Shown here piece by piece: positions 4,156-24,300 of a DNA stretch of 26,044 nt. A program made the translations under genes and the position numbers. The first letter of the stretch is position 1. Each line of letters starts with the position of its first letter. The notes under the pieces were generated by a model, which made no database searches, was not told where the DNA came from, and saw only the letters and a list, made by a program, of their open reading frames with translations. The stretch is from a virus: positions 1 to 26,044 of IMG/VR virus record IMGVR_UViG_3300020467_000041, one strand, 5' to 3'.

Positions 4156-6512
4156 CAGAGATCAGGGTAAAGAAACGTAATGGTAGAAGTGATGAAAACT
4201 TAAGACTAGAAAAGATACACAAGATTGTAGAGTATGCATGTGAAGGTCTTGCAGGTGTATCTGAATCCCAGATTGAAATGAATGCTAACTTTCAATTCTA
4301 TGATGGTATTGCTACACAAGATATCCATGAGATATTAATAAGGTCTGCTAATGATCTGATCTCTCTTGACAATCCTAACTACCAGTATGTTGCAGCAAGA
4401 CTGTTACTATATGGTCTAAGGAAGGGTGTCTATGGAGGACATCCAGACTACCGTCCATTCACTCACGACCATGTAAAGAATTGTGTTGAGAAAGGTGTCT
4501 ATGATGAGACTATCTTAGATGCATACAGTGAGGAAGAGTGGGTCACTATGGATAGTTACATAGTGGATGACAGAGATAATCTATTTACCTATGCAGGTCT
4601 CCGTCAGGTGGTAGATAAATATTTGGTACAAGATAGGAGTAGTGGAGAGATATTTGAGACACCGCAACAAATGTATATAATGATTGCGGCTACTCTCTTT
4701 CAACGTTATCCTACAGACACCAGACTTTCCTACGTTAAGAAATACTATGACGCAATCAGCAAGCACAAAGTCAACATCCCAACACCAGTCATGGCAGGGG
4801 TCAGAACACCCATTCGTCAATTTGCATCTTGTGTTTTGGTTGATGCTGATGACACCCTCGATAGTATCTTTAGCAGTGATATGGCTATTGGCAAATACGT
4901 CGCACAACGTGCTGGTATCGGTATTAACGCAGGAAGGATCCGTGGCATCAACAGTAAGATCCGTGGAGGAGAAGTTCAACACACAGGTGTTGTCCCCTTC
5001 CTTAAGAAGTTTGAATCAACTGTCAGATGTTGCACTCAAAACGGGGTCCGAGGCGGCTCAGCAACTGTCCACTTCCCTATCTGGCATAAGGAAATTCAAG
5101 ACATCATTGTTCTCAAAAACAACAAGGGGACAGAAGACAACAGAGTAAGAAAGTTAGACTACAGTATACAAATATCCAAATTATTTTATGAGAGATTCAT
5201 TCGCAATGAGAATATTAGTTTATTCAGTCCTCACGATGTCCCTGGTCTCTATGATAGCTTTGGTAGTGGGTCTTTCGACGACCTCTACACCAAATACGAA
5301 CGGCAGAGCGAGATTCCAAGAATATCTGTACCTTCGCAAGAACTCATCCTCGATTTATTAAAGGAGAGAGCAGAGACAGGTCGTATATACATCATGAATA
5401 TCGATCACTGTAATGATCATTCATCCTTTAAGGATCCGATATACATGAGTAACCTCTGTCAGGAGATCACTCTACCCACAGATCCTATTCATCATATAGA
5501 TGATGAGGATGCTGAGATAGCATTGTGTATACTATCTGCTATCAATGTAGGTAAGATTAATAAGTTAGAAGACATGGAAGAGTTGTGTGACCTCTCTGTC
5601 CGTGCATTAGAAGAGTTGATTGACTATCAGAGATACCCTGTGGCAGCAGCAGAAAGGTCTACAAGGGCACGTAGGTCATTGGGAATAGGTTTCATTGGTT
5701 TAGCACATTATTTTGCTAAGAATGGTGTGAAGTATGATGACCCTGCCTGTTGGCAACTGACTCATGAATTGACTGAGGCATTCCAATACTATCTACTCAA
5801 AGCATCTAATCAATTAGCAGTTGAAAGAGGTCCATGTGATGCATATGAAAGGACAAAGTATCACGATGGGATACTACCAATTGATACATATAAGAAGGAC
5901 GTAGATTCAATAGTAACACAGGAATTAAAGTATGATTGGGATGGTCTTAGGTATGATATCGCCACCTACGGTCTTAGGCACTCAACACTGTCCGCACAGA
6001 TGCCTTCGGAGAGCAGTTCCGTTGTGTCAAATGCAACCAATGGAATCGAACCACCTAGAGACTACTTGTCCATTAAAAAATCAAAGAAGGGACCTCTTAA
6101 GCAGATTGTACCATCCTACCAGTCATTAAAGAATAATTACACACTACTATGGGATATGCCATCCAACGAGGGTTACATCAATGTCGTAGCAGTGATGCAG
6201 AAGTTCTTTGATCAAGCAATCAGTGGTAACTGGGCATATAATCCAGAGAATTATCCTGATGGTGAGGTACCAGTAAGTGTGATGGCAAACGATCTTCTTA
6301 CCACATATAAAATGGGATGGAAGACATCTTACTACCAGAATACATATGATGGTAAGAAGGAAGAAGAACCAGCACATTCAATAGGATGGCATGAGGGTCA
6401 GTATCCTTTAGAAGATCTAAGTGAAGGTAGAGGAGAGGGTAATGATATCAATAAACTTATTGATGACCTAATGAATGCAGACGAATCGGAGTGTGATGGT
6501 TGTTATGTTTAG
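4152..6512 (+). CDS. nrdA: Ribonucleotide reductase class Ia, large subunit
   Basis: Catalytic alpha subunit that reduces ribonucleoside diphosphates to deoxy forms with the NrdB radical subunit. Numbered from ATG 4152, an N-terminal ATP-cone (about residues 3-95, opening EIRVKKRNG) gives allosteric control. The active-site pattern is complete: C227 in ASCVLVD, N434-L-C436-Q-E438, and C459 in ALCILSAIN, matching E. coli C225, N437/C439/E441 and C462. The phosphate-binding SESSS stretch is also present. The C-terminus ends E-C-D-G-C-Y-V, so the redox cysteines are CxxC spaced rather than CxxxxC as in E. coli. I chose the start overlapping the primase stop (ATGA); ATG 4140 in frame is the alternative. 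The length, 786 residues, is normal. Confidence 0.95.
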   Translation: MTEIRVKKRNGRSDENLRLEKIHKIVEYACEGLAGVSESQIEMNANFQFYDGIATQDIHEILIRSANDLISLDNPNYQYVAARLLLYGLRKGVYGGHPDYRPFTHDHVKNCVEKGVYDETILDAYSEEEWVTMDSYIVDDRDNLFTYAGLRQVVDKYLVQDRSSGEIFETPQQMYIMIAATLFQRYPTDTRLSYVKKYYDAISKHKVNIPTPVMAGVRTPIRQFASCVLVDADDTLDSIFSSDMAIGKYVAQRAGIGINAGRIRGINSKIRGGEVQHTGVVPFLKKFESTVRCCTQNGVRGGSATVHFPIWHKEIQDIIVLKNNKGTEDNRVRKLDYSIQISKLFYERFIRNENISLFSPHDVPGLYDSFGSGSFDDLYTKYERQSEIPRISVPSQELILDLLKERAETGRIYIMNIDHCNDHSSFKDPIYMSNLCQEITLPTDPIHHIDDEDAEIALCILSAINVGKINKLEDMEELCDLSVRALEELIDYQRYPVAAAERSTRARRSLGIGFIGLAHYFAKNGVKYDDPACWQLTHELTEAFQYYLLKASNQLAVERGPCDAYERTKYHDGILPIDTYKKDVDSIVTQELKYDWDGLRYDIATYGLRHSTLSAQMPSESSSVVSNATNGIEPPRDYLSIKKSKKGPLKQIVPSYQSLKNNYTLLWDMPSNEGYINVVAVMQKFFDQAISGNWAYNPENYPDGEVPVSVMANDLLTTYKMGWKTSYYQNTYDGKKEEEPAHSIGWHEGQYPLEDLSEGRGEGNDINKLIDDLMNADESECDGCYV

Positions 6513-10222: not shown

Positions 10223-10412
10223 TGCTAGACAAAAGTTTCCTTTTAGTATAGAATGTAAGAACCAAGAGAAGTTAAATGTATATGATGCTTATGCTCAGGC
10301 AGAAGCAAACTCAGGAGACCACGAGCCTATCCTGTTTATGAAAAAGAATCGTAAGAAAGCTCTTGCTGTTGTTGATGCCGAGTGGTTTATAAAAAATTAT
10401 GGCAGTCCATAG
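10077..10412 (+). CDS. PD-(D/E)xK-like nuclease / resolvase-type protein
   Basis: A 111-residue protein that fits small phage nucleases of the PD-(D/E)xK superfamily. It has a basic N-terminus (KPQSAKAKGRLFQQWVRD), a Gly-Gly-Glu-Asp turn (about residues 40-43, S-M-G-A-G-G-E-D) and a strand ending F-S-I-E-C-K-N, which gives the E-x-K pair. A later strand, ALAVVDAEWF, could complete the fold. ATG 10077 is chosen over an upstream in-frame TTG at 10068. The first 146 bases overlap purN in a different frame, an unusually long overlap, while its own conserved motifs lie in that overlap. A Holliday-junction or repair role is possible. The catalytic assignment is by eye only. Confidence 0.65.
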   Translation: MKPQSAKAKGRLFQQWVRDMLIEERNIHPEDIESRSMGAGGEDLIMARDARQKFPFSIECKNQEKLNVYDAYAQAEANSGDHEPILFMKKNRKKALAVVDAEWFIKNYGSP

Positions 10413-11004
10413 TATGTTTGAAGTCCCTATCGTTCACTACGAGATAGCGAATTGGGATTTGAATAAGAAGAAGATATTAGATGCACTCCCACCAGAGTGT
10501 GAAGAGCATGCAGATGCTCAGGACAATGGATTGTTCACAGATTTCTTTGTGAATGCTAAGGAAGGATCAACTGATCTACCTGAGTATGGAGAGACAATAA
10601 TCAGTGTGATTAAACCATACCTTGCTGACTTCTCTAGTCAGAGGAGGGTAGAGTTTACTGACATGTGGTACCAAAAGTATTACAAAGGGGTACAACATCA
10701 GGTGCACACTCATGGGCACAGTGGATGGTCCTGTGTAATGTATGTGGAGTTTGATCCACAGGTTCATGAACCTACTCAATTCTATTCACCATTTAAGAAT
10801 CCTTGGAATGGTAACCTAGAGACCTTCCAACCTCCTGTAAATGAGGGAGACATGGTAATCTTTCCTGCAACTGTAATGCATGAGGCACCTGCAAATAGAT
10901 CAGAGAAGAGAAGGACTATAGTATCATTTAATATCAGAGGTCATGTAGATGTAGTGAAGTATAAGTTATGGGAAGGTGATCCTATCAGGGTGGTGTCCTC
11001 ATGA
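10399..11004 (+). CDS. Putative 2OG-Fe(II) oxygenase (1 of 7)
   Basis: Member of the cupin-fold 2-oxoglutarate/iron oxygenase group common in cyanophages (PF13759-like). The metal-site pattern is H103-T-H105 followed by a Ser-Cys-Val-Met-Tyr-Val strand. A Gly-Asp-Met-Val-I-F-P strand then leads to H161. R171/R172-T-I-V-S-F follows and would bind 2OG. The first motif is HxH where the classical triad has HxD. The start overlaps the preceding stop by 14 bases; ATG 10414 is an alternative. It is the first of three oxygenase-like genes in a row. Substrate unknown; 201 residues. Confidence 0.75.
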   Translation: MAVHSMFEVPIVHYEIANWDLNKKKILDALPPECEEHADAQDNGLFTDFFVNAKEGSTDLPEYGETIISVIKPYLADFSSQRRVEFTDMWYQKYYKGVQHQVHTHGHSGWSCVMYVEFDPQVHEPTQFYSPFKNPWNGNLETFQPPVNEGDMVIFPATVMHEAPANRSEKRRTIVSFNIRGHVDVVKYKLWEGDPIRVVSS

Positions 11005-11555
11005 CATTCAATTTATTCCCTGTGCCTGTAGAGTATATTCCTAACGCAGTAACAGACTTAGAGATCTTTTACTTGCAGAAAAAGATTAAAGAAATTAAGC
11101 ACATACATCATCAATCTATTAAGGGTAATGGTTTCAGCACTCATAATCCTCATGAGACATATCCATTACTCAGTCAGGACATACACATTAAACTACAGTC
11201 CTATCTTGATGAGTATAATAATAAGGTAGGCAACGTCCCTAGTCTTATAACATATACTTGGTCTAACATACAGCACAGGGATAGTATACTTAAGGAGCAC
11301 TGTCATCCACAGTCTCTTGTATCGGGTGCTCTCTATATAAATGTAGATGATAAGCAAAAGATATATTTCCATAACCCTAACCCATATGTTTACTCCTCAC
11401 CTAGAGAGAAGATCACTCCATATAATATGGAGCATCAATTTATTAAGGTTAATAAGGGAGACCTACTATTGTTTCCAAGTTGGTTGAGACATGGTAAGGA
11501 TGATGAGGTAAACAATATGGATGATAGAACAGTAATTAGTTTTAATGCGACATGA
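11001..11555 (+). CDS. Putative 2OG-Fe(II) oxygenase (2 of 7)
   Basis: A 184-residue protein of the same PF13759-like group. It opens with the N-L-F-P-V-P-V start typical of the family. The first metal motif is H100-C-H102-P-Q-S-L-V-S-G-A-L-Y, followed by the Gly-Asp-Leu-Leu-Leu-F-P-S-W strand, the distal H164-G, and R176 in R-T-V-I-S-F-N for 2OG binding. The start codon overlaps the preceding stop (ATGA), and the stop overlaps the next start, so it is translationally coupled on both sides. It differs strongly in sequence from its neighbours, so it is an old paralogue rather than a recent duplicate. Substrate unknown. Confidence 0.8.
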   Translation: MTFNLFPVPVEYIPNAVTDLEIFYLQKKIKEIKHIHHQSIKGNGFSTHNPHETYPLLSQDIHIKLQSYLDEYNNKVGNVPSLITYTWSNIQHRDSILKEHCHPQSLVSGALYINVDDKQKIYFHNPNPYVYSSPREKITPYNMEHQFIKVNKGDLLLFPSWLRHGKDDEVNNMDDRTVISFNAT

Positions 11556-12166
11556 GTATACCCGAAGAGTTTACAGTTTATAAAGAGTTACTTTGTAAGA
11601 AGGGCACAGACTTTGTATGGGGTAGACAGATACCTGACGAGGTATGCGATCACCTCATAGAATTTTGGGAAAACCAAAAATTCTTACGTGTCCAACCAGG
11701 ACAGGTGTATGCTCAAGGTGATGTTACTACTAACCATGAGCTCAAAGAGTCTATGGATTGTATAATACCTCATCAGGTAGCAATGCCTCACATCCAAGAC
11801 TACCTTACTGAATTGCAGGGAGTGTTGGAGGACTATATAAAAGAGTTTCCTTTCTGTAATACTTCTAGGTTTCAAATCGTTGAACCTTTGAGTATGCAAT
11901 GGTATCCTAAAGGTGGTGGGTTTAAAGAGTGGCATACCGAGAGGTTGAATGCTCTACCTGGTACTGCCTTTAGACACCTAGTCTTTATGACATACCTTAA
12001 TGATGTACCCGATGGTGGTACAGAATGGTATCATCAAGACCTTTACGTACCAGCAAAAAAAGGTTATACTGTTATATGGCCTGCTGATTGGACTCATTTC
12101 CATCGTGGAAGAGTTAGTCACACGTCAGAAAAGCAAATCATAACTGGTTGGTTTGCTTATGTCTGA
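11552..12166 (+). CDS. Putative 2OG-Fe(II) oxygenase, prolyl-4-hydroxylase-like (3 of 7)
   Basis: A 204-residue protein from the prolyl-4-hydroxylase-like branch rather than the PF13759 type. Its core reads E-W-H128-T-E130, then the hallmark strand FMTYLNDVPDGGTEW. The distal motif follows in W-T-H-F-H184-R-G and K194 in E-K-Q-I-I-T-G-W, where a Lys or Arg binds 2OG in P4H enzymes. The acidic ligand of the triad is Glu (H-x-E) rather than Asp. It is coupled to the preceding gene by ATGA. The next gene follows after 9 bases. The substrate is unknown; hydroxylation of a protein or small molecule would fit the family. Confidence 0.85.
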   Translation: MSIPEEFTVYKELLCKKGTDFVWGRQIPDEVCDHLIEFWENQKFLRVQPGQVYAQGDVTTNHELKESMDCIIPHQVAMPHIQDYLTELQGVLEDYIKEFPFCNTSRFQIVEPLSMQWYPKGGGFKEWHTERLNALPGTAFRHLVFMTYLNDVPDGGTEWYHQDLYVPAKKGYTVIWPADWTHFHRGRVSHTSEKQIITGWFAYV

Positions 12167-12175
12167 GGAAGTACT

Positions 12176-12370
12176 ATGAAAGACCAAGGGGCAATCCCAA
12201 AAGAGGGACAGGATGAATGTTTTAATCGAGCACTCGATATCTTCATTGAATCTGTCCATAAACCTGACGATTCACTACGCTCTTGTGCACACAACCAAAA
12301 GTGCTATAATGAACTGATGTGGATTCGAGATGACATTATCGATCACTTAAACACACTACGGAGAAAGTAA
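12176..12370 (+). CDS. Small unknown protein
   Basis: A 64-residue soluble protein preceded by GAGGAAG (12164-12170), five bases before the ATG. It has two Cys residues in a Ser-C-A-H-N-Q-K-C spacing (about residues 36-43) and charged helices before and after (about residues 16-30 and 46-62). The Cys/His arrangement could bind a metal, but there is only one such group. Its stop codon abuts the next ATG. No family recognised. Confidence 0.6.
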   Translation: MKDQGAIPKEGQDECFNRALDIFIESVHKPDDSLRSCAHNQKCYNELMWIRDDIIDHLNTLRRK

Positions 12371-12706
12371 ATGACTTGTGGATTACATGGAAAATTAGAT
12401 ACTGCTATCACAGCAGTAAAGGAAGCACTAACAGCAGCACTGGACGGTGACTTCACGGATAAAGACTTAGAGGATATCCTCTCAGCATATAATACTCTTA
12501 AGTCTGTTAACAAAGGACTAGGGCATCATGATACAGGTATCACATTCACACCTGACTCTACGTTAGAAGATGCAATAACATTCAATGATGATATCAATAT
12601 TGATACAAGCAATGCGACATACGCAGCAGGACCAGTAAATTTTGACCTCGCATCCTATGGGAATGATGTCATAACTTTTGGTGATGACATTAATAACGAT
12701 TCCTAA
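12371..12706 (+). CDS. Unknown acidic protein
   Basis: A 111-residue acidic protein starting directly after the preceding TAA. The N-terminal half is helical and Ala/Leu/Lys-rich (residues 8-50). The C-terminal half contains imperfect repeats with the pattern (D/V)-A/V-I-T-F-(N/G)-D-D-I-N at about residues 66-76 and 98-108. The repeat is short and could be a beta-type unit, but the function is unknown. It is the last gene before the sigma70-type promoter at 12737. Confidence 0.6.
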   Translation: MTCGLHGKLDTAITAVKEALTAALDGDFTDKDLEDILSAYNTLKSVNKGLGHHDTGITFTPDSTLEDAITFNDDINIDTSNATYAAGPVNFDLASYGNDVITFGDDINNDS

Positions 12707-12709
12707 TGG

Positions 12710-12729
12710 AGGTGTAGGTATCAACACCT
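12710..12729 (+). other. Weak hairpin before the hli promoter
   Basis: AGGTGT and ACACCT form a 6-bp stem with an 8-base loop just after the preceding stop codon. No T-run follows, so it is at most a weak or factor-dependent transcript end. Confidence 0.35.
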
Positions 12730-12736
12730 AGTGGGC

Positions 12737-12765
12737 TTGACGGAATTTTATCTTTGCTATATAAT
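12737..12765 (+). promoter_or_regulatory. Sigma70-type promoter for the hli cluster
   Basis: -35 TTGACG (12737-12742), a 17-bp spacer and a perfect -10 TATAAT (12760-12765). This is one mismatch from the host-type consensus, with ideal spacing, 31 bases before the hli start. It would allow early expression by the host RNA polymerase. The transcription start would fall near the palindrome GTAACGTTAC (12769-12778), a possible operator-like site. Confidence 0.8.
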
Positions 12766-12796
12766 TATGTAACGTTACTTAACATAAGTTAACACG

Positions 12797-13006
12797 ATGA
12801 CACAATCAGTGGCAAAACGGTACACAACTACCGAATCAGGTGGAAGGCAAAACATCTTCCCAACTGAACCAAGAATCGAAGTCGATTACGACGCAGACTA
12901 TTGGAAAAATGCTGAGTTACTCAATGGTCGCCTTGCGATGATTGGACTAGTAGCAGCAGTAATCAACTACTCCATCTTTGGATGGATCATACCTGGATTT
13001 GCGTAG
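12797..13006 (+). CDS. hli: High-light-inducible protein (Hli/Scp)
   Basis: A 69-residue single-helix protein of the chlorophyll a/b-binding family. It binds chlorophyll and carotenoid and protects photosystem II and new D1 from excess light. The pigment-binding motif is E-L-L-N-G-R-L-A-M-I-G (about residues 39-49), followed by the hydrophobic helix and a typical end (F-G-W-I-I-P-G). The first ~35 residues form a polar leader. No Shine-Dalgarno sequence is visible, so initiation probably depends on the short leader. It is the first gene behind the promoter at 12737, and a second hli follows after 47 bases. Confidence 0.93.
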   Translation: MTQSVAKRYTTTESGGRQNIFPTEPRIEVDYDADYWKNAELLNGRLAMIGLVAAVINYSIFGWIIPGFA

Positions 13007-13053
13007 TCGAACGCAGGTCTCTTTAAATTTCTACCCCTAACAATCTAAGAAAA

Positions 13054-13161
13054 ATGACACCAGAAGCAGAAAAGTTTAACGGATGGGCAGCCATGATTGG
13101 TTTTGTCGCAGCAATAGGTGCTTACGTTACCACAGGACAAATCATTCCTGGAATCTTCTAA
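13054..13161 (+). CDS. hli: Short high-light-inducible protein (second hli)
   Basis: A 35-residue minimal Hli consisting of little more than the pigment-binding helix: E-K-F-N-G-W-A-A-M-I-G-F-V-A-A-I-G-A-Y and the end I-I-P-G-I-F. The canonical N-G-R is N-G-W here, so the Arg that normally pairs with the motif's Glu is replaced. Such very short Hli proteins are usual in marine picocyanobacteria and their phages. It would act in the thylakoid membrane, perhaps as a dimer with the longer Hli upstream. Too short to be found by length-based gene calling, but unmistakable by motif. Confidence 0.92.
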   Translation: MTPEAEKFNGWAAMIGFVAAIGAYVTTGQIIPGIF

Positions 13162-13163
13162 AG

Positions 13164-13171
13164 TATAAATA
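13164..13171 (+). promoter_or_regulatory. T4-type late promoter (TATAAATA)
   Basis: Exact TATAAATA, within the near-palindrome AGTATAAATACT, 26 bases before the ATG at 13198 and directly after the second hli stop. It would give the small membrane-protein chain late expression in addition to readthrough from the early promoter at 12737. Confidence 0.7.
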
Positions 13172-13197
13172 CTTATTCACAAAAGTTAACAATACAA

Positions 13198-13371
13198 ATG
13201 AGCGACTTTACAGCCGCAACAGACAGTATATCACCACTAGTAGCACTCCTCTGGGTATTTTATCCGATGGGTGCTTTAGTCGTAGTTGAACTACTTCTCC
13301 GTGCCATCAACAATGATGATGACGACGATAGAGATGGTGGTAAAATGATACCAGCAACATTACCTACTTAA
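13198..13371 (+). CDS. 57-residue single-span membrane protein
   Basis: A small protein with one hydrophobic helix (about residues 11-35, with an Arg at the helix end) and a sharply acidic tail containing five Asp in a row (residues 40-44), then Arg/Asp/Gly/Gly. By the positive-inside logic the tail orientation is unclear. It follows the late promoter at 13164 and has no strong Shine-Dalgarno. From memory similar short proteins with a poly-Asp tail occur next to hli and psbA in other cyanophages, which I could not check. A role in the thylakoid or cell membrane is inference. Confidence 0.6.
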   Translation: MSDFTAATDSISPLVALLWVFYPMGALVVVELLLRAINNDDDDDRDGGKMIPATLPT

Positions 13372-13375
13372 TACT

Positions 13376-13450
13376 ATGCCTTTTATAGTTTTTGGTTGCG
13401 TCTTAGCCGCAACTGCATTCACTGACTTATCTTGGATGGTAATCCAATGA
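13376..13450 (+). CDS. 24-residue hydrophobic peptide
   Basis: A very short frame encoding an almost wholly hydrophobic peptide (I-V-F-G-C-V-L-A-A-T-A-F core) ending in W-M-V-I-Q. It starts 4 bases after the preceding stop, and its TGA overlaps the next ATG as ATGA, the same arrangement as its neighbours. That supports translation. Size and composition recall the smallest photosystem or cytochrome subunits, but no specific family signature is present. Function unknown. Confidence 0.4.
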   Translation: MPFIVFGCVLAATAFTDLSWMVIQ

Positions 13451-13686
13451 TCTTCCTAGCAAAACCATCCGTGTATACCTTACCAGGTACATGGGAGAAG
13501 CAACCTTTGATTGAACCTGGTCTTGCTATACCTATAATAATTGGAGTAATTGTTATAGGACTACTAGGTTATGGAATTTACATGACATTCGGTAAAGGTA
13601 AGGAAGGACTCAGAGATGAGATCGATGAGCATTCTAAGATGCATGAGCTAGGCATAGCACATGGTCATAAACCTAAGAAGACATGA
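13447..13686 (+). CDS. PsbN-like single-span membrane protein
   Basis: A 79-residue protein with a polar N-terminus, one membrane helix (about residues 26-47) and a C-terminal stretch strongly resembling cyanobacterial PsbN. Residues 41-64 read G-Y-G-I-Y-M-T-F-G-K-G-K-E-G-L-R-D followed by an E-I-D-E-H end, against G-F-(A/G)-(L/I)-Y-T-A-F-G-x-x-x-x-x-L-R-D-P-F-E-E-H in PsbN. PsbN is needed for assembly or repair of photosystem II but is not a core subunit. Here the N-terminus is ~20 residues longer than normal and there is a His-rich tail. It lies between hli genes and psbA. It starts in an ATGA overlap; an in-frame TTG at 13432 is less likely. Confidence 0.6.
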   Translation: MIFLAKPSVYTLPGTWEKQPLIEPGLAIPIIIGVIVIGLLGYGIYMTFGKGKEGLRDEIDEHSKMHELGIAHGHKPKKT

Positions 13687-13835
13687 AACTTCGTCTCCCA
13701 CGAAAGAAATTATGGTTAGCTGCCTTGAAACTTCAAAGGTGGCCTGTCAAGTGGTGGGATGAGAAGGTGGAAGAGAGAAGAAATAAAGAAAAGATTCGTA
13801 AAGAAAAAGTAGCGAGACTTTATCCTAAAAAATGA
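13683..13835 (+). CDS. 50-residue highly basic protein
   Basis: A small Lys/Arg-rich protein with several Trp residues: K-L-R-L-P-R-K-K-L-W near the start, R-W-P-V-K-W-W in the middle and a charged Arg/Lys/Glu helix at the end. No transmembrane stretch. It begins in an ATGA overlap with the PsbN-like gene and ends in an ATGA overlap with the next gene, so it belongs to the coupled chain. Nucleic-acid or membrane-surface binding is possible; function unknown. Confidence 0.5.
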   Translation: MKLRLPRKKLWLAALKLQRWPVKWWDEKVEERRNKEKIRKEKVARLYPKK

Positions 13836-14110
13836 CTTTTATTATAGCAGTAATGTCCTTTGCAAACTTTGTATTCTATCCTCTAGTGATAGGCACAATC
13901 ATTGCAGTAATTATTGAGCAAATCTTTAGAGCAACAGGTAACCAAGATGACCCTAACGCAGTACGAAATGTTATACTCTCTATGGGAATTAGAAAGTACC
14001 TTTATCGCCAAGCATGGCTCTTTAATATTATTTGGTTTGTCGGCTATGCGATCCTTTTATTTGTAGTAAGACCAGGGCAGGGAATGCCTGATATGATATG
14101 GCAGGGTTAG
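13832..14110 (+). CDS. Two-span membrane protein, unknown function
   Basis: A 92-residue protein with two hydrophobic helices (about residues 3-30 and 62-79) joined by a charged loop with Asp/Asn and Arg/Lys residues. No conserved redox or pigment ligands stand out. It starts in an ATGA overlap and contains the start of the next tiny gene in its last 13 bases. Being downstream of hli and a PsbN-like gene suggests a membrane role during infection, but a holin-like role cannot be excluded from topology alone. Confidence 0.65.
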   Translation: MTFIIAVMSFANFVFYPLVIGTIIAVIIEQIFRATGNQDDPNAVRNVILSMGIRKYLYRQAWLFNIIWFVGYAILLFVVRPGQGMPDMIWQG

Positions 14111-14196
14111 AAACAACATTAATAACAATTCCTCAAGGGTGGCATCCCCTTCTAGAGCTTGCTCTTATAATTACTATTGGAGTAACGTTCGGATGA
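14098..14196 (+). CDS. 32-residue hydrophobic peptide
   Basis: A short frame starting inside the end of the preceding gene (13-base overlap). The product has a polar start followed by a hydrophobic helix (L-L-E-L-A-L-I-I-T-I-G-V) and ends at an ATGA overlap with the next short frame. The repeated junction style favours real translation, but length and composition alone are weak evidence. Function unknown; a minimal membrane peptide. Confidence 0.4.
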   Translation: MAGLETTLITIPQGWHPLLELALIITIGVTFG

Positions 14197-14264
14197 GTCG
14201 TGTACCGTTTAGAGCAATGTATCAAGGAGGAGTGGATCCCCTTGCAAAAATACAGGAACCTTAG
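14193..14264 (+). CDS. 23-residue peptide frame, doubtful
   Basis: A short frame from the ATGA junction at 14193 to TAG 14262-14264, encoding a basic start and a Gly/Val/Asp/Pro middle. The arrangement (coupled start, next ATG five bases after its stop) matches the chain, but nothing in the peptide is recognisable. GGAGGAG at 14226-14232 inside it might instead serve a downstream start, although it is 37 bases from the nearest ATG at 14269. Confidence 0.25.
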   Translation: MSRVPFRAMYQGGVDPLAKIQEP

Positions 14265-14268
14265 TAGA

Positions 14269-14361
14269 ATGAAAGCTGACTTTCTCATGAGCATCAGTAA
14301 GATGATGAAGAGAGAGGAAATATTATTGAGAATGGTTGATGAAACTAATCAGATTCACTAG
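14269..14361 (+). CDS. 30-residue peptide frame, doubtful
   Basis: A short helical, Met/Lys/Glu-rich frame. Its stop lies 23 bases inside the following oxygenase gene. It fills the only gap between the small membrane-protein chain and the next 2OG oxygenase, and its translation could hand ribosomes to the start at 14339. No recognised family. Confidence 0.3.
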   Translation: MKADFLMSISKMMKREEILLRMVDETNQIH

Positions 14362-14986
14362 TGGTGAGACTTATACTCCTTTCGCAGCTGCGTGGGAGTA
14401 TTTCTTTTGTGAAGATGATCTTAAGATACCCCTAGAAGAATTAAAGAAAGAGATATTAGATAAAGAGAAGGGTATAATAGATCAGTATGAGTTTGAGGAT
14501 GACTGGGGTACCAAACTAGGTTCCAAGAGTCTTACTGCTAGATCAAATAAATATAATCTACTCAACTTTGATAGTGCTTTACCATTAAAGATTGCTATCA
14601 AGAAGACACATGATAAATTTATCACAGAGTTGGGTGCACCTGAGATACCTCCAATATATGTCCAGTGTTGGGCTAATGTTATGAGAGAGGGTGATCAGAT
14701 AGCAGTCCACTCACATGGTAAGGATCCATATGGATACCTGAGTGGTCATGTGTGTGTCCAAGTTACTGATACTAATACAAACTATTATAATCCTTATGGT
14801 GGAGACCCTTGGTCATCATCTAACAGTGCAGGTAAGATCACACTCTTCCCTAGTTGGGTTAGTCATGGTACTGATAAGGTAGTGGACAATAAAGAAAGGG
14901 TCACAATAGCATTTGACATACTAACTGAAGATGGTTACAATAAGATTGTAAAAGATGACATGAAGGAGCACTGGGTTAAGGTATGA
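14339..14986 (+). CDS. Putative 2OG-Fe(II) oxygenase (4 of 7)
   Basis: A 215-residue PF13759-like oxygenase. The metal-site pattern is V-H124-S-H126-G, then after a 3-residue insertion relative to its paralogues L-S-G-H-V-C-V. The Gly-Lys-I-T-L-F-P-S-W strand, distal H176-G and R187-V-T-I-A-F follow. ATG 14339 is chosen; an in-frame TTG at 14336 would add one residue. It opens the second oxygenase triplet and is coupled to the next gene by ATGA. The first motif is HxH instead of HxD. Substrate unknown. Confidence 0.8.
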   Translation: MKLIRFTSGETYTPFAAAWEYFFCEDDLKIPLEELKKEILDKEKGIIDQYEFEDDWGTKLGSKSLTARSNKYNLLNFDSALPLKIAIKKTHDKFITELGAPEIPPIYVQCWANVMREGDQIAVHSHGKDPYGYLSGHVCVQVTDTNTNYYNPYGGDPWSSSNSAGKITLFPSWVSHGTDKVVDNKERVTIAFDILTEDGYNKIVKDDMKEHWVKV

Positions 14987-15255
14987 ATGAAGACTATCGA
15001 ATGGAGCAGAGACTAAACGAGAGGAAGATCTGTTTAGGATGCTTCGCTTCAAAACATATACCTATAACATCAGAGGTCTACCAATTTTCACACGACTTTG
15101 TAGAGAGTGGTCAACTTGATAAGTATATACCTACCAGAGAAGACCCATTACAAGACGAAGTTAATAAGTATGGTGGAGATTATTTCCAGATGGCATGCCA
15201 AGCAATACTAGAAGGGTGGGAGGAGCATAAGAAACGCTTCCCCAATAGAGTATGA
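14983..15255 (+). CDS. Unknown small protein inside the oxygenase cluster
   Basis: A 90-residue charged protein. It has a C-L-G-C pair near the N-terminus (about residues 17-20) and another Cys (about residue 77), many Tyr and Glu residues and no membrane segment. The C-x-x-C could bind a metal or be redox-active. It is joined to the oxygenases on both sides by ATGA overlaps, so it is probably made in step with them; whether it is an accessory or carrier protein is not known. Confidence 0.65.
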   Translation: MNEDYRMEQRLNERKICLGCFASKHIPITSEVYQFSHDFVESGQLDKYIPTREDPLQDEVNKYGGDYFQMACQAILEGWEEHKKRFPNRV

Positions 15256-15860
15256 AAGTTATAGTACCTAAAAACTATGGTTGGATAGAGCATAAACTAT
15301 ATGAGCAGGAGTTTGATCATGTTAAGAGTTGTATTGATATACCATCAGAGTCTAGGATATCTCTTGCAGGTAATATAAAGGAGAGTATTCTTCTACAAGA
15401 TAAGGACAATTGGTTCTTTAATAATACTATTGTCCCATTAATTCAGACTTATACCCAAGAGTTTGGTAACCTAGGTAATAATATACCTCTTAACCAACAC
15501 CATCCATATCGTATGAGTGATTGGTGGGTTAACTATCAGAAGCAACATGAGTTTAATCCATTACATTTTCACACTGGCATCTTTAGTTTTGTGATATGGA
15601 TTAAGATACCTATTGATTGGGAAGAGCAGAATAAAGATAACCCAAGCAACATGCCATCTAAATCATCCTTTAAGTTTGTTTATACAGATAACCTAGGAGA
15701 AATTAGATACTATGACTACAACCTAGATGCTAAGGCAGAGGGTGTGATGTTATTCTTCCCAAGTAAACTAAATCATATAGTATATCCTTTCTACAACTGT
15801 GAGGAGGAGAGAGTAAGTGTCTCAGGTAACATCGGAGTTGATACCACTATTAAATTATGA
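15252..15860 (+). CDS. Putative 2OG-Fe(II) oxygenase (5 of 7)
   Basis: A 202-residue protein with the oxygenase core in divergent form. W-W-V-N-Y-Q-K-Q leads to P-L-H105-F-H107-T-G and an S-F-V-I-W-I strand in place of the usual S-G-V-Y-Y. A long insertion follows, then G-V-M-L-F-F-P-S-K-L-N-H175, and R187-V-S-V-S-G-N-I. All key positions are present, so it is probably active. It starts and ends in ATGA overlaps. The long insertion between strand and distal His (about residues 122-160) may shape a distinct substrate pocket. Confidence 0.75.
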   Translation: MKVIVPKNYGWIEHKLYEQEFDHVKSCIDIPSESRISLAGNIKESILLQDKDNWFFNNTIVPLIQTYTQEFGNLGNNIPLNQHHPYRMSDWWVNYQKQHEFNPLHFHTGIFSFVIWIKIPIDWEEQNKDNPSNMPSKSSFKFVYTDNLGEIRYYDYNLDAKAEGVMLFFPSKLNHIVYPFYNCEEERVSVSGNIGVDTTIKL

Positions 15861-16387
15861 TCACAGATTTATTCCCGACTAAAATATATGAGGCCAAGAT
15901 CTCAAACTATGACATCATACAGGATGAGTTTGAGACTGTAGAGAAGGGTATCAACTGGCAAAACCTATGGGATACTCATTTTATATCTGATCCAAATTTT
16001 GAAGAGAATATATTACCTTATCATTTCTCACGAGAGTTAAGGAATCATTTATACAATTACACAGGGAGTGATGGTTGGAGTCAACAAGCATCTTGGATGG
16101 CATGTCTGGAACCAGGACACTATGCTCATGCACATCATCATGGACATGCAGATCTATCTGGTGTATACTATTACAAGACTACAGGAGATGATGGAGATCT
16201 ATTCTTCCAGACACCTAACCTAGCATCAACTACTAGTGTATGGTCTAACCAACCACATACTATCTCAATGAAACCAGAGCAAGGCAAGATAATATTATTT
16301 CCAGGTTACTTAATGCATGGTATACGTACCAATACAACACCACATACACGACTGAGTGTATCATTTAATATGAGGTTTGATAGATGA
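15857..16387 (+). CDS. Putative 2OG-Fe(II) oxygenase (6 of 7)
   Basis: A 176-residue protein that is the clearest PF13759-type member here. It has an N-terminal D-L-F-P-T-K-I, then the His-rich H91-A-H93-H94-H95-G-H97 leading to L-S-G-V-Y-Y-Y. The G-K-I-I-L-F-P-G strand, distal H154-G and R165-L-S-V-S-F-N follow. By spacing to the Ser-Gly, H93 and H95 align with the metal pair of the paralogues. It is coupled by ATGA to the preceding oxygenase and to the halogenase that follows, which suggests a shared pathway. Confidence 0.85.
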   Translation: MITDLFPTKIYEAKISNYDIIQDEFETVEKGINWQNLWDTHFISDPNFEENILPYHFSRELRNHLYNYTGSDGWSQQASWMACLEPGHYAHAHHHGHADLSGVYYYKTTGDDGDLFFQTPNLASTTSVWSNQPHTISMKPEQGKIILFPGYLMHGIRTNTTPHTRLSVSFNMRFDR

Positions 16388-17847
16388 AGATTGTTATTGT
16401 AGGTGGAGGTACTGCTGCATGGATGGCAGCAGCAGCACTCGCTAAGACATTCCCAGAGTATGATATCACCTTGGTAAAGGGTGGTGATCCTATTGGGGTG
16501 GGTGAATCTACAACACCACACATCAATCAATACCTAAAGTATATGGGTATAGATGACAAGACATTCCTTACAGCAGCGAGAGCAACATACAAATCTACTA
16601 GTAGGTTTGAAAACTTTACTGAGTTAGGTCATGTCTTCCACTATCCTAATGGTCAAGCACCTGCTTTGAATCTAACTGATGCTACATTCCATGACTGGAT
16701 GTGTGCAAAGGCATTCGGTCAGGATCCACCTCCATTTGCTGATGTCTTTATGCCATTCGTAACGGTGGCAGAAGAGAAGAAGATGCCATTAAATAACTCG
16801 TTGCTTATTCCATATGATTTATCTAAAGACAGATCGTTTCACATCGACGGAAGTAAATTCTCTGCCTATCTACAAGAAACTTTTTGTAGTAATGTTAGAG
16901 TGGTCGATAGTCAGGTTAAGTCAGTTGGTTATGACGGACAAAGAATATCAGGTGTCTTTCTGGAGAGAGGGCCGTACGATCTCAGGGCACCGTCAATTGA
17001 TGCAGATCTCTATCTCGACTGTACTGGGCAAGCATCTACACTAGGTGGTGCTATGACTAGTTGGATGCCATTTGAATCTATTCCAACAGACACTGCTATC
17101 GTAAGGAAGAGAGATTATATTGATAAAGATAAGGAGATGGTACCATACACCAACGCAAGGGGTATGAGTAGTGGATGGCAGTGGACTATCCCAACGTGGG
17201 AATATATTTCAGAGGGATATGTATTCTCTAGTAAGTTTCAGACTGAAGAGGAAGCAAAGAAAGAGTTTGGTGAAGGTAAAGTAATTAAGTTTAGAAATGG
17301 TAGACAGAAGGAAGCATGGGTAGGTAACTGTGTGATGATTGGTCTAGCATATAGTTTCATTGAACCATTAGAATCTACCTCATTATTCTCAGCACATCAT
17401 GGTATCCTTGCTCTTGTTGATAGTTTGAAGGAGGAACCTGGTATCAATCAGTTTATGAGAGATAGATTCAATCACAATATGAATGAGCACTGTGATGGAT
17501 GGAAAGAGTTTGTTGAAGCACACTATTATTATTCTCGTAGGATAGACACACCATTCTGGGAGCATGTGACACAGAATACAAGGTATGAACTTCAAGGTGC
17601 TCACGATCTAGTCCAGTTTCACATGGTAGGGGGTGATCCAGTTCAACATGAGGCACACCCCATACTTTACATTTTGGGCGGAGCAGGGTATACTAGTGTT
17701 AGGAGGAGATCATATCAGTACTTCAACTACCCATCAGTACCCTCTAGTAAGGTTGACGGATGGAAACATCTTTACAATAAGAGAAAGAAGTTAGCTGAGT
17801 CTCTACCTACAATGTATAAATATCTAAAAGAAAACTACTTCTCATGA
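16384..17847 (+). CDS. Flavin-dependent halogenase (tryptophan halogenase family)
   Basis: A 487-residue PrnA-type halogenase that would use FADH2, O2 and halide to halogenate an electron-rich ring. It has the FAD-binding V-G7-G-G-T-A-A-W, the flavin loop G-V-G-E-S-T-T-P, and the catalytic-lysine motif A-T-Y-K70-S-T-S-R-F-E-N-F, corresponding to PrnA K79. The family hallmark W265-Q-W267-T-I-P270 is intact, and F-I-E-P-L-E-S-T (E327-E330) matches the region of the conserved glutamate. All catalytic marks are present. Related cyanophage enzymes are known; VirX1 of cyanophage Syn10 is a characterised iodinating halogenase. It is coupled by ATGA to the oxygenase upstream and to a small gene downstream. 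No flavin reductase is seen, so FADH2 must come from the host. Confidence 0.93.
   Translation: MKIVIVGGGTAAWMAAAALAKTFPEYDITLVKGGDPIGVGESTTPHINQYLKYMGIDDKTFLTAARATYKSTSRFENFTELGHVFHYPNGQAPALNLTDATFHDWMCAKAFGQDPPPFADVFMPFVTVAEEKKMPLNNSLLIPYDLSKDRSFHIDGSKFSAYLQETFCSNVRVVDSQVKSVGYDGQRISGVFLERGPYDLRAPSIDADLYLDCTGQASTLGGAMTSWMPFESIPTDTAIVRKRDYIDKDKEMVPYTNARGMSSGWQWTIPTWEYISEGYVFSSKFQTEEEAKKEFGEGKVIKFRNGRQKEAWVGNCVMIGLAYSFIEPLESTSLFSAHHGILALVDSLKEEPGINQFMRDRFNHNMNEHCDGWKEFVEAHYYYSRRIDTPFWEHVTQNTRYELQGAHDLVQFHMVGGDPVQHEAHPILYILGGAGYTSVRRRSYQYFNYPSVPSSKVDGWKHLYNKRKKLAESLPTMYKYLKENYFS
17815..17822 (+). promoter_or_regulatory. Possible late promoter (TATAAATA) at halogenase end
   Basis: Exact TATAAATA, 21 bases before the ATG at 17844. 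It lies in coding sequence where it reads Tyr-Lys-Tyr, so chance is possible, and the spacing to the start is short. Confidence 0.35.
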
Positions 17848-20098: not shown

Positions 20099-21271
20099 AT
20101 GAAAGTAGCAATCATCGGAAAAGGATTAGCAGGTATACTAACTGCAATGGCATGGAAAGCACACGTCCCTTCCTCCGAGATAGAAATTTATTACGACCCC
20201 GATGCACCTATTGAACCTGTAGGGTCGGGGTCATGGCCTAATCTGTTAGATCTTATCACACAGTTTGAAGAGAGATCACCAGAGTCTTGGTCATCTATTG
20301 GTCCTATGTTGTATAATAATTGGCGAGATGCCAAGTGGGATCAAACAGTTAAGACAGGTATAAGTTACAGTGGATGGGGTGGTAAGGATTGGTTCCATGA
20401 CTTCGGTATTAACAGAGTGGCAATGCACTTTGATCCTAAGATGTTTTGTGATGACATGTCACAATACTTTAAGTGCATCCCTAAGAAGGTAGGATATAAT
20501 ATTGATGCTGATTACATCTATGATTGTGGAGGGTCACCCTTCAGTGGAAGGGAGTGTTCAAGTGAGTCATGGGATCGTTATACACTGCTGCAAAATCCCC
20601 TCAACAGAGTACTACTGGCCGAAACTGACCCATATACTAGAGTCTATTGCACCACTGATAATGTTGCCACTAAAGATGGTTGGTGTTTTGTTATCCCACT
20701 ACAGAGTAGGACATCAATGGGATATCTTTTCAACAGTGACATCACAACTGATGAAGAGGCACTAGAGAATTTTCATGAGCAGTTTGGTGAAGCAAAGGTA
20801 ACTGGTTGGAGATCATTCCATAACTATTGTGCAAAGAATCCTGTCATGGATGGTAGGATCTTTATGAATGGAAACAAATACTTCTTTATTGAACCACTAG
20901 AAGCAACAAGTATTACAGGATATATGGTGTGGATTGAGAGAACCTTGCGTTATATTATGCAAGGTGCTAGTATACAAGAGATGGTTGCAGATAATCAGCG
21001 AGACATCTGTGAGAATGCTAACTTCCTTCTCTATCATTATGCACATGGATCTAAGTATGACACACCCTTCTGGGACTATGCTAAGAGTCTTTGGAAACCT
21101 ACTGATACTTGGAATAATATATTAAAGGATGCAAAGCAAGGTAACTGGAAGCATAGGGTGCAAGGCACAGCATATAATTACAGTTACTTTAGTTTCTTAT
21201 CAGTCATTGCTACCTACTGCAACATGGAAACACAACAAGACTTCAAGTCTTTATTAAGGAATAATTGGTAA
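20099..21271 (+). CDS. Divergent flavin-dependent halogenase-like protein
   Basis: A 390-residue protein of the same family as the halogenase at 16384, but about 100 residues shorter and divergent. Residues 7-12 give G-K-G-L-A-G for FAD, and V-G-S-G-S-W-P-N-L-L stands in for the usual G-V-G-E-S-T-x-P. The lysine motif T-V-K85-T-G-I-S-Y-S-G-W aligns with the PrnA K79 pattern. The hallmark WxWxIP is W195-C-F197-V-I-P200, with the second Trp replaced by Phe, and F-I-E-P-L-E-A-T replaces the usual EPLEST. It may be active on another substrate or act as a flavin monooxygenase. ATG 20099 follows the terminator directly; an in-frame TTG at 20069 would run through the terminator hairpin. Its promoter is not visible, so expression probably depends on partial readthrough from psbA. 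Confidence 0.8.
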   Translation: MKVAIIGKGLAGILTAMAWKAHVPSSEIEIYYDPDAPIEPVGSGSWPNLLDLITQFEERSPESWSSIGPMLYNNWRDAKWDQTVKTGISYSGWGGKDWFHDFGINRVAMHFDPKMFCDDMSQYFKCIPKKVGYNIDADYIYDCGGSPFSGRECSSESWDRYTLLQNPLNRVLLAETDPYTRVYCTTDNVATKDGWCFVIPLQSRTSMGYLFNSDITTDEEALENFHEQFGEAKVTGWRSFHNYCAKNPVMDGRIFMNGNKYFFIEPLEATSITGYMVWIERTLRYIMQGASIQEMVADNQRDICENANFLLYHYAHGSKYDTPFWDYAKSLWKPTDTWNNILKDAKQGNWKHRVQGTAYNYSYFSFLSVIATYCNMETQQDFKSLLRNNW

Positions 21272-21375: not shown

Positions 21376-24300
21376 ATGGCTGGCGAAACCATAAGAGATA
21401 TAGTAGAGAGGTGTTACTCAACACCGAGTGGGATACTGGCAGCGAATCCATTAGACCAGTTAAATCCTAGTGTACCTACTTCTGGATCGTCAGGTAATGT
21501 TGTACCTCCTGTCAATCCTGGTGATGCAATAAGAAATATAGTTGGGAGATGTTACAGTGTCCCAGTTTATAACCTACCTAACGTATTGGATGAACAGAAT
21601 CCAATACCAGTACAGATCCCTCCTACGGTACCACCCGACCCTAAACCTGGTGATGTCATAAGAAGGATAGTTGAGAGATGTTACTCTACTCCACCAGAAT
21701 TACCACAAATAATAGATCCACCAACACCCCCTGATATTGGATGGGGTTGGGAGTTACCTCCTTGGGGACCGTGGATGCACAGAGAGTTTGGATGGCTCCC
21801 TCCAATAAAAATAACACTTCATCCACCATACAAAGGTGGGTCAGCAATCATAGTCAAGACTGGACCTGAAGACCAGTGTGATAAGGTTAGGAAGTTATTA
21901 GAATTAAATTTACTCAGAGCATTAAAAGATTACAGTGAACCTGGATTCCCTTCACCTGGATGGTGGGAGCACATAGAAACTGGTGAGAAATATTATTGTG
22001 ATTTAGATCAGGGATTACCTGGTGACCCATTCAAAACTTGTGTTAGGAATGCATTAGACTGTCTCTTTAGACCTTACCTTGGTGGTCAATGGGAACCACC
22101 CAAGGCAAACTGTGATGCTTACTGGCCTAATGGATGGAGTGGTAACCAGACTGAGGTATGTGTAGAGAATTGTTATCCAGATAGGATACCAATCTATGAA
22201 TCAACCATGTCCACAGGGACATTAGCATTCTCATTTGATGGGTCGGGTAATCTAGTTGCTACTGGTAGTGGTACTGCTGTTGCGGTACTAAAACTACAGT
22301 GGAATGATAACCCCAACACATATAATGTTGCCATCAATAATATTCAGATGGGAGGACAGCAGTGGACAAGGACAGGTAGATCTGGTGAAGAGATTCATAC
22401 ACTTAATATTACTGGTGCTGGTACCACATCTATCACTATGAATGGTAACTCTGGTGGGTTTACTATCGTTGATAACAACACCAGAATATGCATGAAGGAT
22501 CTGGATGGTAATGATTGTAATGCTAACTTCAGTATCGTATCTATTAACACTGGTTCTGACCATGCATACGATCCTAATGGTGCCAAGTCAGGTTACACTT
22601 TAACTAATTCTAAACCAGCATTCTATATCCTTGCACAACCTATAGAAAATGTAACTGTCCCACTGTTTAGATTCTACTCAACAACACAGCAAGATACATT
22701 CTTAACTACTAACCCAGGTCAACCTGATACTGCTGGTGCAGGTGAGAGAGCAACCATGAATGCTTCAGGTATGGCAGGTGGTGAAGTCTTAGGACATGTA
22801 TTCCCAACTGCTAGTGCAATGAGAAGTTATCTACATGATGATGAGCAAGCAGAGGCACTCCATAGATTCTGGAGTACTAGTCCTTTCGATCACAAGTATA
22901 CTATTGATGGTGAGATAGTAGGTGGTAACCCTCAGAAGATACCTAAGAGGTGGTGCTATCGTATACCTATAGAATCTAAGGCAGACCTTAACATCTCTAT
23001 GGATGTTGAGAAAGGAGGAGCAGGATATGATAATGCACTTGGATTCTACCTAGCAGATGCTACTGGTCCTAAGTATGGACGCATCGTTGTAACTAGTGCT
23101 AGGAATGGTACCAATCTATACAACGCATGGATGACCAGTCTAAAACTCAACGAGTATGCTGGAGGGACGATGGGATTTTTCCTCATCCCTAATGGTGGTG
23201 GCCAGAATTCACTCAGCATCATGCAAGAGGTAACATTCAGTCCACTTAACTCTCCTTACTCAGGTGGTTTCAGTGCAGTAGGTATCAATACAGCACAGAA
23301 TAATTACTGTCTCTTCAGTGATAAGACATGGAATCCTATGCAGAAGGATCAAACTAAGTGGCAAGGAAAGAACAATCAATTCTGGGAAGACCTTATCGCT
23401 GGTGACGATGACTATGATGATCTAAGACTATGGCACAGGTTAGGGTGGACGTATGGTGGTTACACCTACGAGGGTATCCAATGCTATTTGTATGAGGGTG
23501 CTGCACCAGAGAAGGTGATGAGAAAGATAGACCCTACTACAAAATGCGATGCTAGAATATTAAAGGCCAGCTTTAAGGATGTAATTATGAGACGCATGGA
23601 CTGTGGTAACAAAGTCCCTGCTGTCTTTGGTAACGATGTGGAATGGGAGTGTGGCACATGTAATGGTGAATACTCAGTCAAATTAAATACCAACCAGAGT
23701 ATTAAAGCAGCAGTCGGTGGTACCTTTAGGTTTGTATCTATGGGTGGTATTAATGGTGGTCTCTTCGGAGCATGTATGAAATTTACTGTGGAGATGAGGA
23801 AGAAGGACAAGGATGATGTTGTTACAACTCTATTCAATAAACAGTTTGAAGCACAGTATTGGCCTGCAATAGGTAGAGACTTATACGATCAGGATATTAT
23901 TTTAGAACCAACTGATGAGTTAACCTTTGAGGTAGTAAGTATTGATACAGGTGCAGTTACAGGTGACATATCACTAGAGGCAGCACTCTATGCTCTTGAC
24001 ACTACTATGTTTGAGGGTGCATTCAAGATCATGCTTGGCACTCAGTCACATGACAGTGTGATAGCAGCTCAAACAGGTAACCCAACACTTAACCCAATTA
24101 CTAAAGAGGGTGGACTGATAGAAGGATTTGCATTCTCATATAATCCTACCAACAGACTAGAGTTTGAGTGGGAAGCAGGTAGTAAACTGTCTGAGACATG
24201 GAGTGAGGACAACGTGCCTGATCCAGGAGATCCATACACATATGTCTGGGCAAATAATATACCAGTGGCAATGCATGGATCACTCCAAGCAAACCCAGAG

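Follow-up and report, generated by a model that had tools for sequence, protein, structure and literature searches.

The virus record IMGVR_UViG_3300020467_000041 of IMG/VR, a stretch of 26,044 bases that was analysed at its full length (to be referred to as the window), carries six oxygenase-like genes in two blocks, the second of which runs into the gene of a flavin-dependent halogenase. The ribonucleotide reductase, heme oxygenase and psbA genes of the window, as well as its database matches, are those of T4-like cyanophages. Such a locus raises the question of what so many enzymes act on, and whether they serve one route or several targets. Comparison with related phages shows that the parts of the locus also occur apart, although they tend to cluster. 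The reading that we favour, with a probability of roughly 0.4, is that the block is a parallel tailoring kit, with the surface and tail-fibre proteins of the phage as its most likely targets.

All the genes of the two blocks are located on the plus strand. The first block contains OxA (10399–11004; PF13759, 48 bits), OxB (11001–11555; PF13759, 59 bits) and OxC (11552–12166; PF13640, 31 bits), and the second contains OxD (14339–14986; PF13759, 45 bits), OxE (15252–15860; PF13759, 39 bits), OxF (15857–16387; PF13759, 69 bits) and the halogenase HalA (16384–17847; PF04820, 273 bits). Each of these seven Pfam matches is above the curated cut-off (27 bits for PF13759). In PHROGs, OxC matches phrog_61, the other five oxygenase-like proteins match phrog_81, and HalA matches the halogenase family phrog_2928. 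The six oxygenase-like genes and the full halogenase gene described in a first-pass annotation are therefore confirmed by both databases. That annotation had also called the six proteins highly diverged, and different enzymes rather than fresh copies; with pairwise identities of 19–29%, both statements are borne out. It overlooked a second halogenase gene (HalB, 20099–21271) and the start of a seventh oxygenase gene (from 25731).

The ATGA overlaps between neighbouring genes are at exactly the positions given in that annotation, and its second triplet of oxygenase genes (OxD, OxE and OxF) is present. This triplet, however, also holds a non-oxygenase gene (sDE, 14983–15255, plus strand), for a helical protein of 90 residues with a CxxC motif, and the overlaps at 14983 and 15252 therefore involve sDE. 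Four-base ATGA overlaps are found at 12 of the 40 gene junctions overall, at 6 of 6 within the two blocks and at 6 of 34 elsewhere (Fisher p = 2e-4). Coupling is thus widespread in this phage, and more frequent inside the blocks.

Do the oxygenases and the halogenase travel together? HalA was compared across 21 rows (the window, 19 contigs and the cultured phage S-MbCM6). The oxygenases just before HalA are OxD, OxE and OxF in seven rows, OxD and OxF in one, OxD only in seven, OxF only in two, and none in four. The HalA tree, which omits the near-copies L005, L012, L014 and L016, requires at least five changes of oxygenase content, compared to 11.4 with shuffled labels, for rows that are related to each other. 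The content is inherited within HalA clades and differs between clades, and both the full set and its complete absence are found within one 100/100 HalA group. In the first block, OxA and OxC are present in every contig relative that reaches them, and OxB is present in some contig relatives and either absent or diverged beyond detection in the others.

In the contig L024, nine upstream genes are 98–100% identical to those of the window, and the gene after HalA is 97% identical. Between these flanks is an OxD-sDE-HalA cassette at 65–73% identity, without OxE or OxF. Further downstream, two small genes are diverged (61 and 56%), and psbA is at 95%. A whole cassette has therefore been swapped in one piece, and its gene content changed. 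In the nearest cultured relative, S-MbCM6, HalA is 52% identical and there is no oxygenase gene within 6 kb of it. The gene upstream of this HalA was considered as an oxygenase and rejected; it belongs to phrog_512, with weak similarity to endolysin. The comparison of gene order across relatives, which the first-pass annotation had proposed, speaks largely against joint gain and loss, in that the oxygenases differ while HalA stays; clustered content and cassette exchange stand against full independence.

A broader comparison was made with 25 T4-like phage genomes, consisting of 24 named phage records (one from Pelagibacter) and a 199-kb contig of uncertain completeness. Oxygenases are found in all 25, with 6–19 in each; these counts are minima, as S-CREM1 has six here and ten in its paper. 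Seven of the 25 genomes (P-SSM7, P-SSM4, P-HM1, Syn33, S-SM1, Syn19 and S-RSM4) have no PF04820 match, and three of these halogenase-free phages, P-SSM7, S-SM1 and S-RSM4, carry tandem runs of four, six and seven oxygenases, respectively. Two further contigs (G003 and G004, 140 and 104 kb) have a halogenase, yet no PF13759 or phrog_81 match, with phrog_61 not searched there. Within 6 kb of a halogenase are 41 of 211 oxygenases, compared to 18 expected by rotation (p = 2e-4; 18 non-independent genomes). This test includes S-PM2, with a broken halogenase, and excludes the window, a 74-kb contig, G003 and G004. Halogenase-bearing genomes are not significantly richer in oxygenases (p = 0.11). The pieces are thus separable, yet they tend to cluster. 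A fixed biosynthetic gene cluster, with joint gain and loss of its members, was not found. The first-pass annotation had deduced one multi-step route from the size of the set and its coupling; this is not supported, as gain and loss are largely independent. In the S-PM2 record (NC_006820), the halogenase gene (121319–122608) has an internal TAA stop.

The setting of the halogenases suggests where the targets may lie. HalA has an intact flavin motif, catalytic Lys, WxWxIP motif and FIEPLEST segment including its Glu residue; we take the WxWxIP and Glu motifs to have their usual roles in this enzyme. Among solved structures, the highest score for HalA is to VirX1 from cyanophage Syn10 (PDB 6qgm, E = 3e-72), with 32.5% sequence identity. 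HalA, the VirX1-type enzymes and the tandem partners of the latter form a single 100/99 clade, and the Lys, WxWxIP-type and EPLEST motifs are common to HalA and VirX1. Judged from these sequences, HalA belongs on the VirX1 side of the flavin-dependent halogenases. It is not inside the VirX1-type subclade in the halogenase tree but forms a subclade of its own, and it is located by psbA, without the phrog_863 and phrog_1787 neighbours of the VirX1-type genes. Weak matches of HalA to QhpG and LodB, which we take to be protein-tryptophan-modifying monooxygenases, cover the first 73 residues only and were not used. VirX1 favours iodide and accepts many aromatic substrates in vitro (PMC8407142; this and the other papers are cited from the sections consulted), and its natural substrate is not named in those sections.

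The VirX1-type halogenases have a consistent neighbourhood. The order of genes is phrog_863, phrog_1787, one or two halogenases, and then oxygenase-like genes, and it is observed in seven of eight cyanophages (Syn10, P-TIM40, P-RSM6, S-RIM44, Sf-FP1, S-CREM1 and S-WAM1), with S-B64 as the exception. S-B64 is outside the halogenase tree and was counted as VirX1-type from a full-length match only. The phrog_863 genes are labelled tail fibre assembly, their products contain 22–28% Gly, and the Gly_rich_2 domain was found in the three that were tested. The cyanophage proteins assigned here were picked for their fibre-like position, and S-SZBM1 and most other matched records are outside this set. 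A similar arrangement is seen in IMG/VR contigs that have a full-length HalA-like match at 31–34% identity and at least 3 kb upstream. In 12 of 13 such contigs, phrog_1787 is located about 1.7–2.3 kb and phrog_863 about 2.4–3.1 kb before the halogenase, and L027 is without them. The two profiles were built from four of these 12 contigs and the seven cyanophages, which therefore match by construction, and the spacing indicates near-copies among the contigs (L029/L042/L044/L047, L035/L046 and L038/L039/L049). Directly downstream in L046 are gp13, gp14 and gp15, which are head-tail genes. The halogenase-free oxygenase arrays of S-RSM4, S-SM1 and P-SSM7 also adjoin tail-fibre genes.

A few details of these loci may be recorded. 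A phrog_1458 gene for a protein of about 415 residues, with no Pfam match, is located between phrog_1787 and the halogenase in L046 (8733–9980) and L042 (8742–9986). In S-CREM1 (L087), the fibre gene preceding the halogenase (4624–5427) is annotated as collagen-like, and downstream of the halogenase are seven genes with the annotation 2-oxoglutarate (2OG) oxygenase, the last of which is cut, and one annotated as JmjC.

The second halogenase of the window, HalB (20099–21271, plus strand; PF04820, 96 bits), is shorter and diverged. It keeps the Lys and Glu residues, and its flavin and WxWxIP motifs are degenerate (GKGLAGI, PVGSGSWP, GWCFVIP). It is directly upstream of a gene (21376–25170, plus strand) for a virion or fibre-like protein of 1264 residues, and HalB is followed by a fibre-like gene in 11 of 14 loci. 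In L070 and L071 it is followed instead by GC344-like structural genes resembling those of S-ShM2, and in L069 there is no open reading frame (ORF) of at least 250 residues downstream within the stretch examined. The 1264-residue protein is a candidate substrate of HalB. It has a Pro-rich N terminus, with 20% Pro in the first 150 residues, and three N-terminal IRxIVxRCY repeats in Pro-rich linkers; the three RCY motifs are present in all seven relatives compared and in the 199-kb contig G001. The case for these repeats as a HalB-specific target is weakened, as P-RSM6 and S-WAM1, both without a HalB-type match, also have the motif in genes of fibre size, and as it is absent from the HalB-bearing L070, L071 and L077.

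The oxygenase-like proteins were examined in an alignment of 186 phage sequences, the six of the window and 180 from 16 genomes. The first His residue is conserved in 185 of them, the distal His in 182, and a basic residue (Arg or Lys) in 179. Classical 2OG-Fe(II) oxygenases have Asp or Glu at the second position of the H-x-D/E motif. At this position, two residues past the first His, the alignment has His in 107 sequences, Asp in 60, Glu in 17 and Val in one. In the window, the 2-His-1-carboxylate site (H-x-D/E...H) was not found in OxA (H-T-H), OxB (H-C-H), OxD (H-S-H), OxE (H-F-H) or OxF (H-H-H), each of which reads H-x-H...H. OxC alone reads H-x-E...H (H-T-E...H...K) and is a canonical 2OG-Fe(II) oxygenase. 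The other five are referred to here as PF13759-family oxygenase-like proteins, because their motif at this place reads H-x-H and not H-x-D/E. The basic residue at the aligned column for the 2OG carboxylate is Arg in these five and Lys in OxC.

Given H-x-H...H in 107 of 186 sequences, iron may be bound by three histidines in these common phage enzymes. If so, a common phage enzyme family departs from the textbook site of the 2OG oxygenases; a literature search for three-histidine 2OG oxygenases, in the sources as far as they were available, turned up one paper, on EgtB. Two solved members of the family, 2rg4 and 3bvc (PF13759, TIGR02466 and phrog_81), resemble the window oxygenases in family score and fold, and likewise have H-x-H in the alignment. 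Both are titled 'uncharacterized', and of the six window proteins only OxF passes the TIGR02466 cut-off of 62.5 bits, and barely (62.9 bits), with OxA, OxB, OxD and OxE below it and no match for OxC. No characterised TIGR02466 protein was found in the literature consulted, and a source that uses the term shows no assay in its accessible parts.

Some annotated endonuclease genes touch on this family. Genes named 'DNA endonuclease V/denV' or 'DNA endonuclease' (phrog_274, phrog_2297) are found in or by the oxygenase arrays of S-RSM4 (L096, 10219–11209) and S-SSM7 (L084, 3435–3989). One of the two S-RSM4 'denV' genes tested also matches phrog_61, with 56 bits, and the S-SSM7 'DNA endonuclease' gene reads H-x-D in the oxygenase alignment; the denV name is therefore probably wrong.

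The structure of OxF, the only one of the six that was modelled, has a predicted local distance difference test (pLDDT) score of 87 and the double-stranded β-helix fold of 2OG oxygenases. Its closest matches are 2rg4 (Z score 17.5) and 3bvc (17.2), followed by other 2OG enzymes among those listed, with Z scores of 15.7–14.2. The latter include protein-acting prolyl hydroxylases, AlkB and small-molecule enzymes. The best matches are thus uncharacterised TIGR02466-like proteins, and the protein hydroxylases score on par with AlkB. A shared fold by itself demonstrates no function. A virus-encoded 2OG enzyme, vCPH of Paramecium bursaria chlorella virus 1 (PDB 5c5t), also has the OxF fold (Z score 14.5), with 16% identity in the structural alignment. 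Its site, which we take to be the classical H-x-D, differs from that of OxF.

These observations can be combined in the following manner. The block would be a local cluster from a genome-wide, changing pool of oxygenase-like enzymes, and the halogenase would adjoin this cluster without being a fixed partner. The oxygenases would most likely work in parallel, each at its own site, and not as successive steps on one molecule. Most likely, proteins would be hydroxylated, and their aromatic residues chlorinated, brominated or iodinated; the surface and tail-fibre proteins of the phage itself would come first among the targets, at a late stage of infection. By analogy, HalA, located beside psbA, would do the same as its VirX1-type relatives. 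Among the three substrate classes guessed in the first-pass annotation (a host pigment, a metabolite or a phage protein), the last gains indirect support. The tail-fibre linkage of the VirX1-type halogenases, the fibre linkage of HalB and the protein hydroxylases among the fold neighbours of OxF count in favour of this reading. So does the position of halogenase loci, which are located within 6 kb of an ORF of at least 900 residues in 13 of 16 cases, compared to 6.2 expected (p = 2e-4, 16 genomes). Moreover, the evolution of cyanophage S-TIM4 on a range of hosts led to mutations in 20 genes, including a 2OG gene, and 14 of the 20 were found in the particle (PMC6224464).

Several observations weigh against the tailoring of fibres. 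HalA is upstream of psbA and not beside a fibre gene, and none of its five loci, one of which is a near-copy of the window, has phrog_863 or phrog_1787 neighbours. The branching order of HalA and the VirX1-type groups within the 100/99 clade is not resolved, and OxF resembles AlkB and small-molecule enzymes in fold as well. For the 2OG gene of S-TIM4, the authors of that study point to nutrient limitation rather than to fibres (PMC6224464). Halogenases of other types are found in other settings, such as the sugar or lipopolysaccharide-like cluster of S-SSM7. The proximity of halogenase loci to ORFs of at least 900 residues is not significant at 2 or 4 kb. Thresholds of 2–8 kb were scanned for oxygenase and halogenase proximity, and the genomes are related. 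A general position of oxygenases beside virion genes was rejected by size-matched controls in 16 genomes, where 180 of 183 oxygenase places could be assigned to ORFs. Within 3 kb of a big ORF are 33 of 180 oxygenases, compared to 188 of 832 controls (p = 0.94), and 66 of 180 are within 6 kb (p = 0.36). Enrichment is seen only at 8 kb (p = 0.009), and the proximity of oxygenase arrays to big ORFs is not significant below 7 kb.

A wider proposal is rather doubtful. In it, the receptor-binding tail fibres of T4-like phages would be halogenated and hydroxylated by the VirX1-group halogenases of the same phages, with or without oxygenase arrays, and the array content would be what changes fast; the H-x-H motif may in addition be a three-histidine site. 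If this were true, the host-binding surface would gain chemistry beyond the twenty amino acids, and the natural substrate of VirX1 would be the glycine-rich fibre encoded just upstream. Enzymatic chemistry would then add to mutation as a source of adhesin diversity in phages. The synteny singles out the glycine-rich tail fibre as a definite candidate target, open to experiment, for both the oxygenases and VirX1.

The immediate surroundings of HalA would also fit other substrates. The block is located among genes for heme oxygenase, an hli-type protein and a PsbN-like protein, together with psbA. HalA precedes psbA in those close relatives with contigs that extend to psbA, as well as in S-MbCM6, where psbD follows. 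As part of a photosynthesis island, HalA and the oxygenases could thus act on a host pigment, a photosystem protein or a metabolite linked to photosynthesis. We consider this unlikely, as the VirX1-type halogenases and arrays of Syn10, P-TIM40, S-RSM4, S-SM1 and P-SSM7 are located elsewhere, and adjacency to psbA may be positional only. The single multi-step route of hydroxylation and halogenation, on one substrate and with co-travelling genes, as modelled in the first-pass annotation, would account for the tight ATGA coupling, the excess of oxygenases near halogenases, the clustering of content on the HalA tree and the exchange of OxD-sDE-HalA as a cassette in L024. It is largely refuted already by the differences in content between HalA clades, the arrays without a halogenase and the halogenases without phrog_81 oxygenases, and has a low probability. 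Modification of glycans or lipids, at the cell surface or on the virion, appears about equally improbable. In S-SSM7 the halogenase and oxygenases are found together with carbamoyltransferase, heptose and nucleotide-sugar genes, and OxB and OxF have weak matches, with scores far under the cut-off, to TIGR04324, an oxygenase family named for a 'sporadic carbohydrate cluster'. There is, however, no sugar gene among the window genes scanned, and this family of halogenases modifies aromatic rings (PMC8407142).

The two remaining explanations have been proposed before, and both are very improbable here. From the number of 2OG oxygenases and the NtcA sites in 16 genomes, Sullivan et al. 2010 (PMC3037559) arrived at a role in which the chief effect of the oxygenases would be on 2-oxoglutarate and the nitrogen response through NtcA, with their exact substrates secondary. 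This leaves unexplained why there are many diverged enzymes with conserved sites, as well as the arrays and the halogenases. An AlkB-like repair or modification of nucleic acids was suggested for Syn9 by Weigele et al. 2007 (as given in PMC2984593). The presence of AlkB among the fold neighbours of OxF and the DNA methyltransferase genes that follow the arrays of Syn10 and P-TIM40 are consistent with it. On the other hand, the best fold matches are the uncharacterised TIGR02466-like proteins, protein hydroxylases score as high as AlkB, and we know of no repair role of a halogenase. In addition, the oxygenases of S-SZBM1 are not located between its uvsY and uvsW (PMC9146016).

Cyanophage oxygenases and halogenases are themselves known, and the points worth following are the location of VirX1-type genes by tail-fibre genes and the H-x-H motif. 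The first-pass annotation spoke of single oxygenases in cyanophages, which understates the case, with 24 in S-SCSM1 (PMC9602691) and ten in S-CREM1 (PMC9964418). Both genomes, like the window, have many diverged PF13759 and PF13640 copies, and in the sections consulted their accounts cover numbers, subfamilies and general functions, without a link to tail fibres. Multi-copy oxygenases and halogenases have been described in cyanophages (PMC3037559, PMC9602691, PMC9964418, PMC10452541), and the functions proposed include DNA repair, 2-oxoglutarate control, general protein modification and antibiotic protection (the same papers and PMC2984593). In phage ms29, oxygenase-like genes have the highest copy number of all auxiliary genes (PMC10436341). 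With 6–19 per genome here, they are matched in number by few other auxiliary genes of marine T4-like phages. No proposal of fibre modification by these enzymes was found in the literature searched, which covers few subscription journals, and the papers as far as consulted.

The small protein sDE matches no family in Pfam, PHROGs or NCBIfam, and its fold has no PDB match under E = 0.001. Its gene is kept before HalA in L004–L025, even where the neighbouring oxygenases are gone (L013–L017), and there is no tblastn match in L026 or S-MbCM6. A relationship to the GC860 small protein upstream of the S-PM2 and Syn1 halogenases was considered and rejected; the two look unrelated in a comparison by eye only.

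The region between the two blocks had been called an hli cluster in the first-pass annotation. One ORF there (12797–13006) indeed matches the hli-type family PF00504, but it is the only one of eight ORFs scanned to do so; another (13432–13686) is PsbN-like (PF02468, above the cut-off). At the other end of the window, an open frame from 25731 that is cut by the window end at 26044 (plus strand) is the start of the seventh oxygenase (phrog_81, 45.6 bits), which the L012 neighbour matched at 22%. The 199-kb contig G001, from a close relative, carries HalA and HalB together with a VirX1-type pair followed by oxygenases, and the phage of the window may therefore carry more such genes beyond this fragment.

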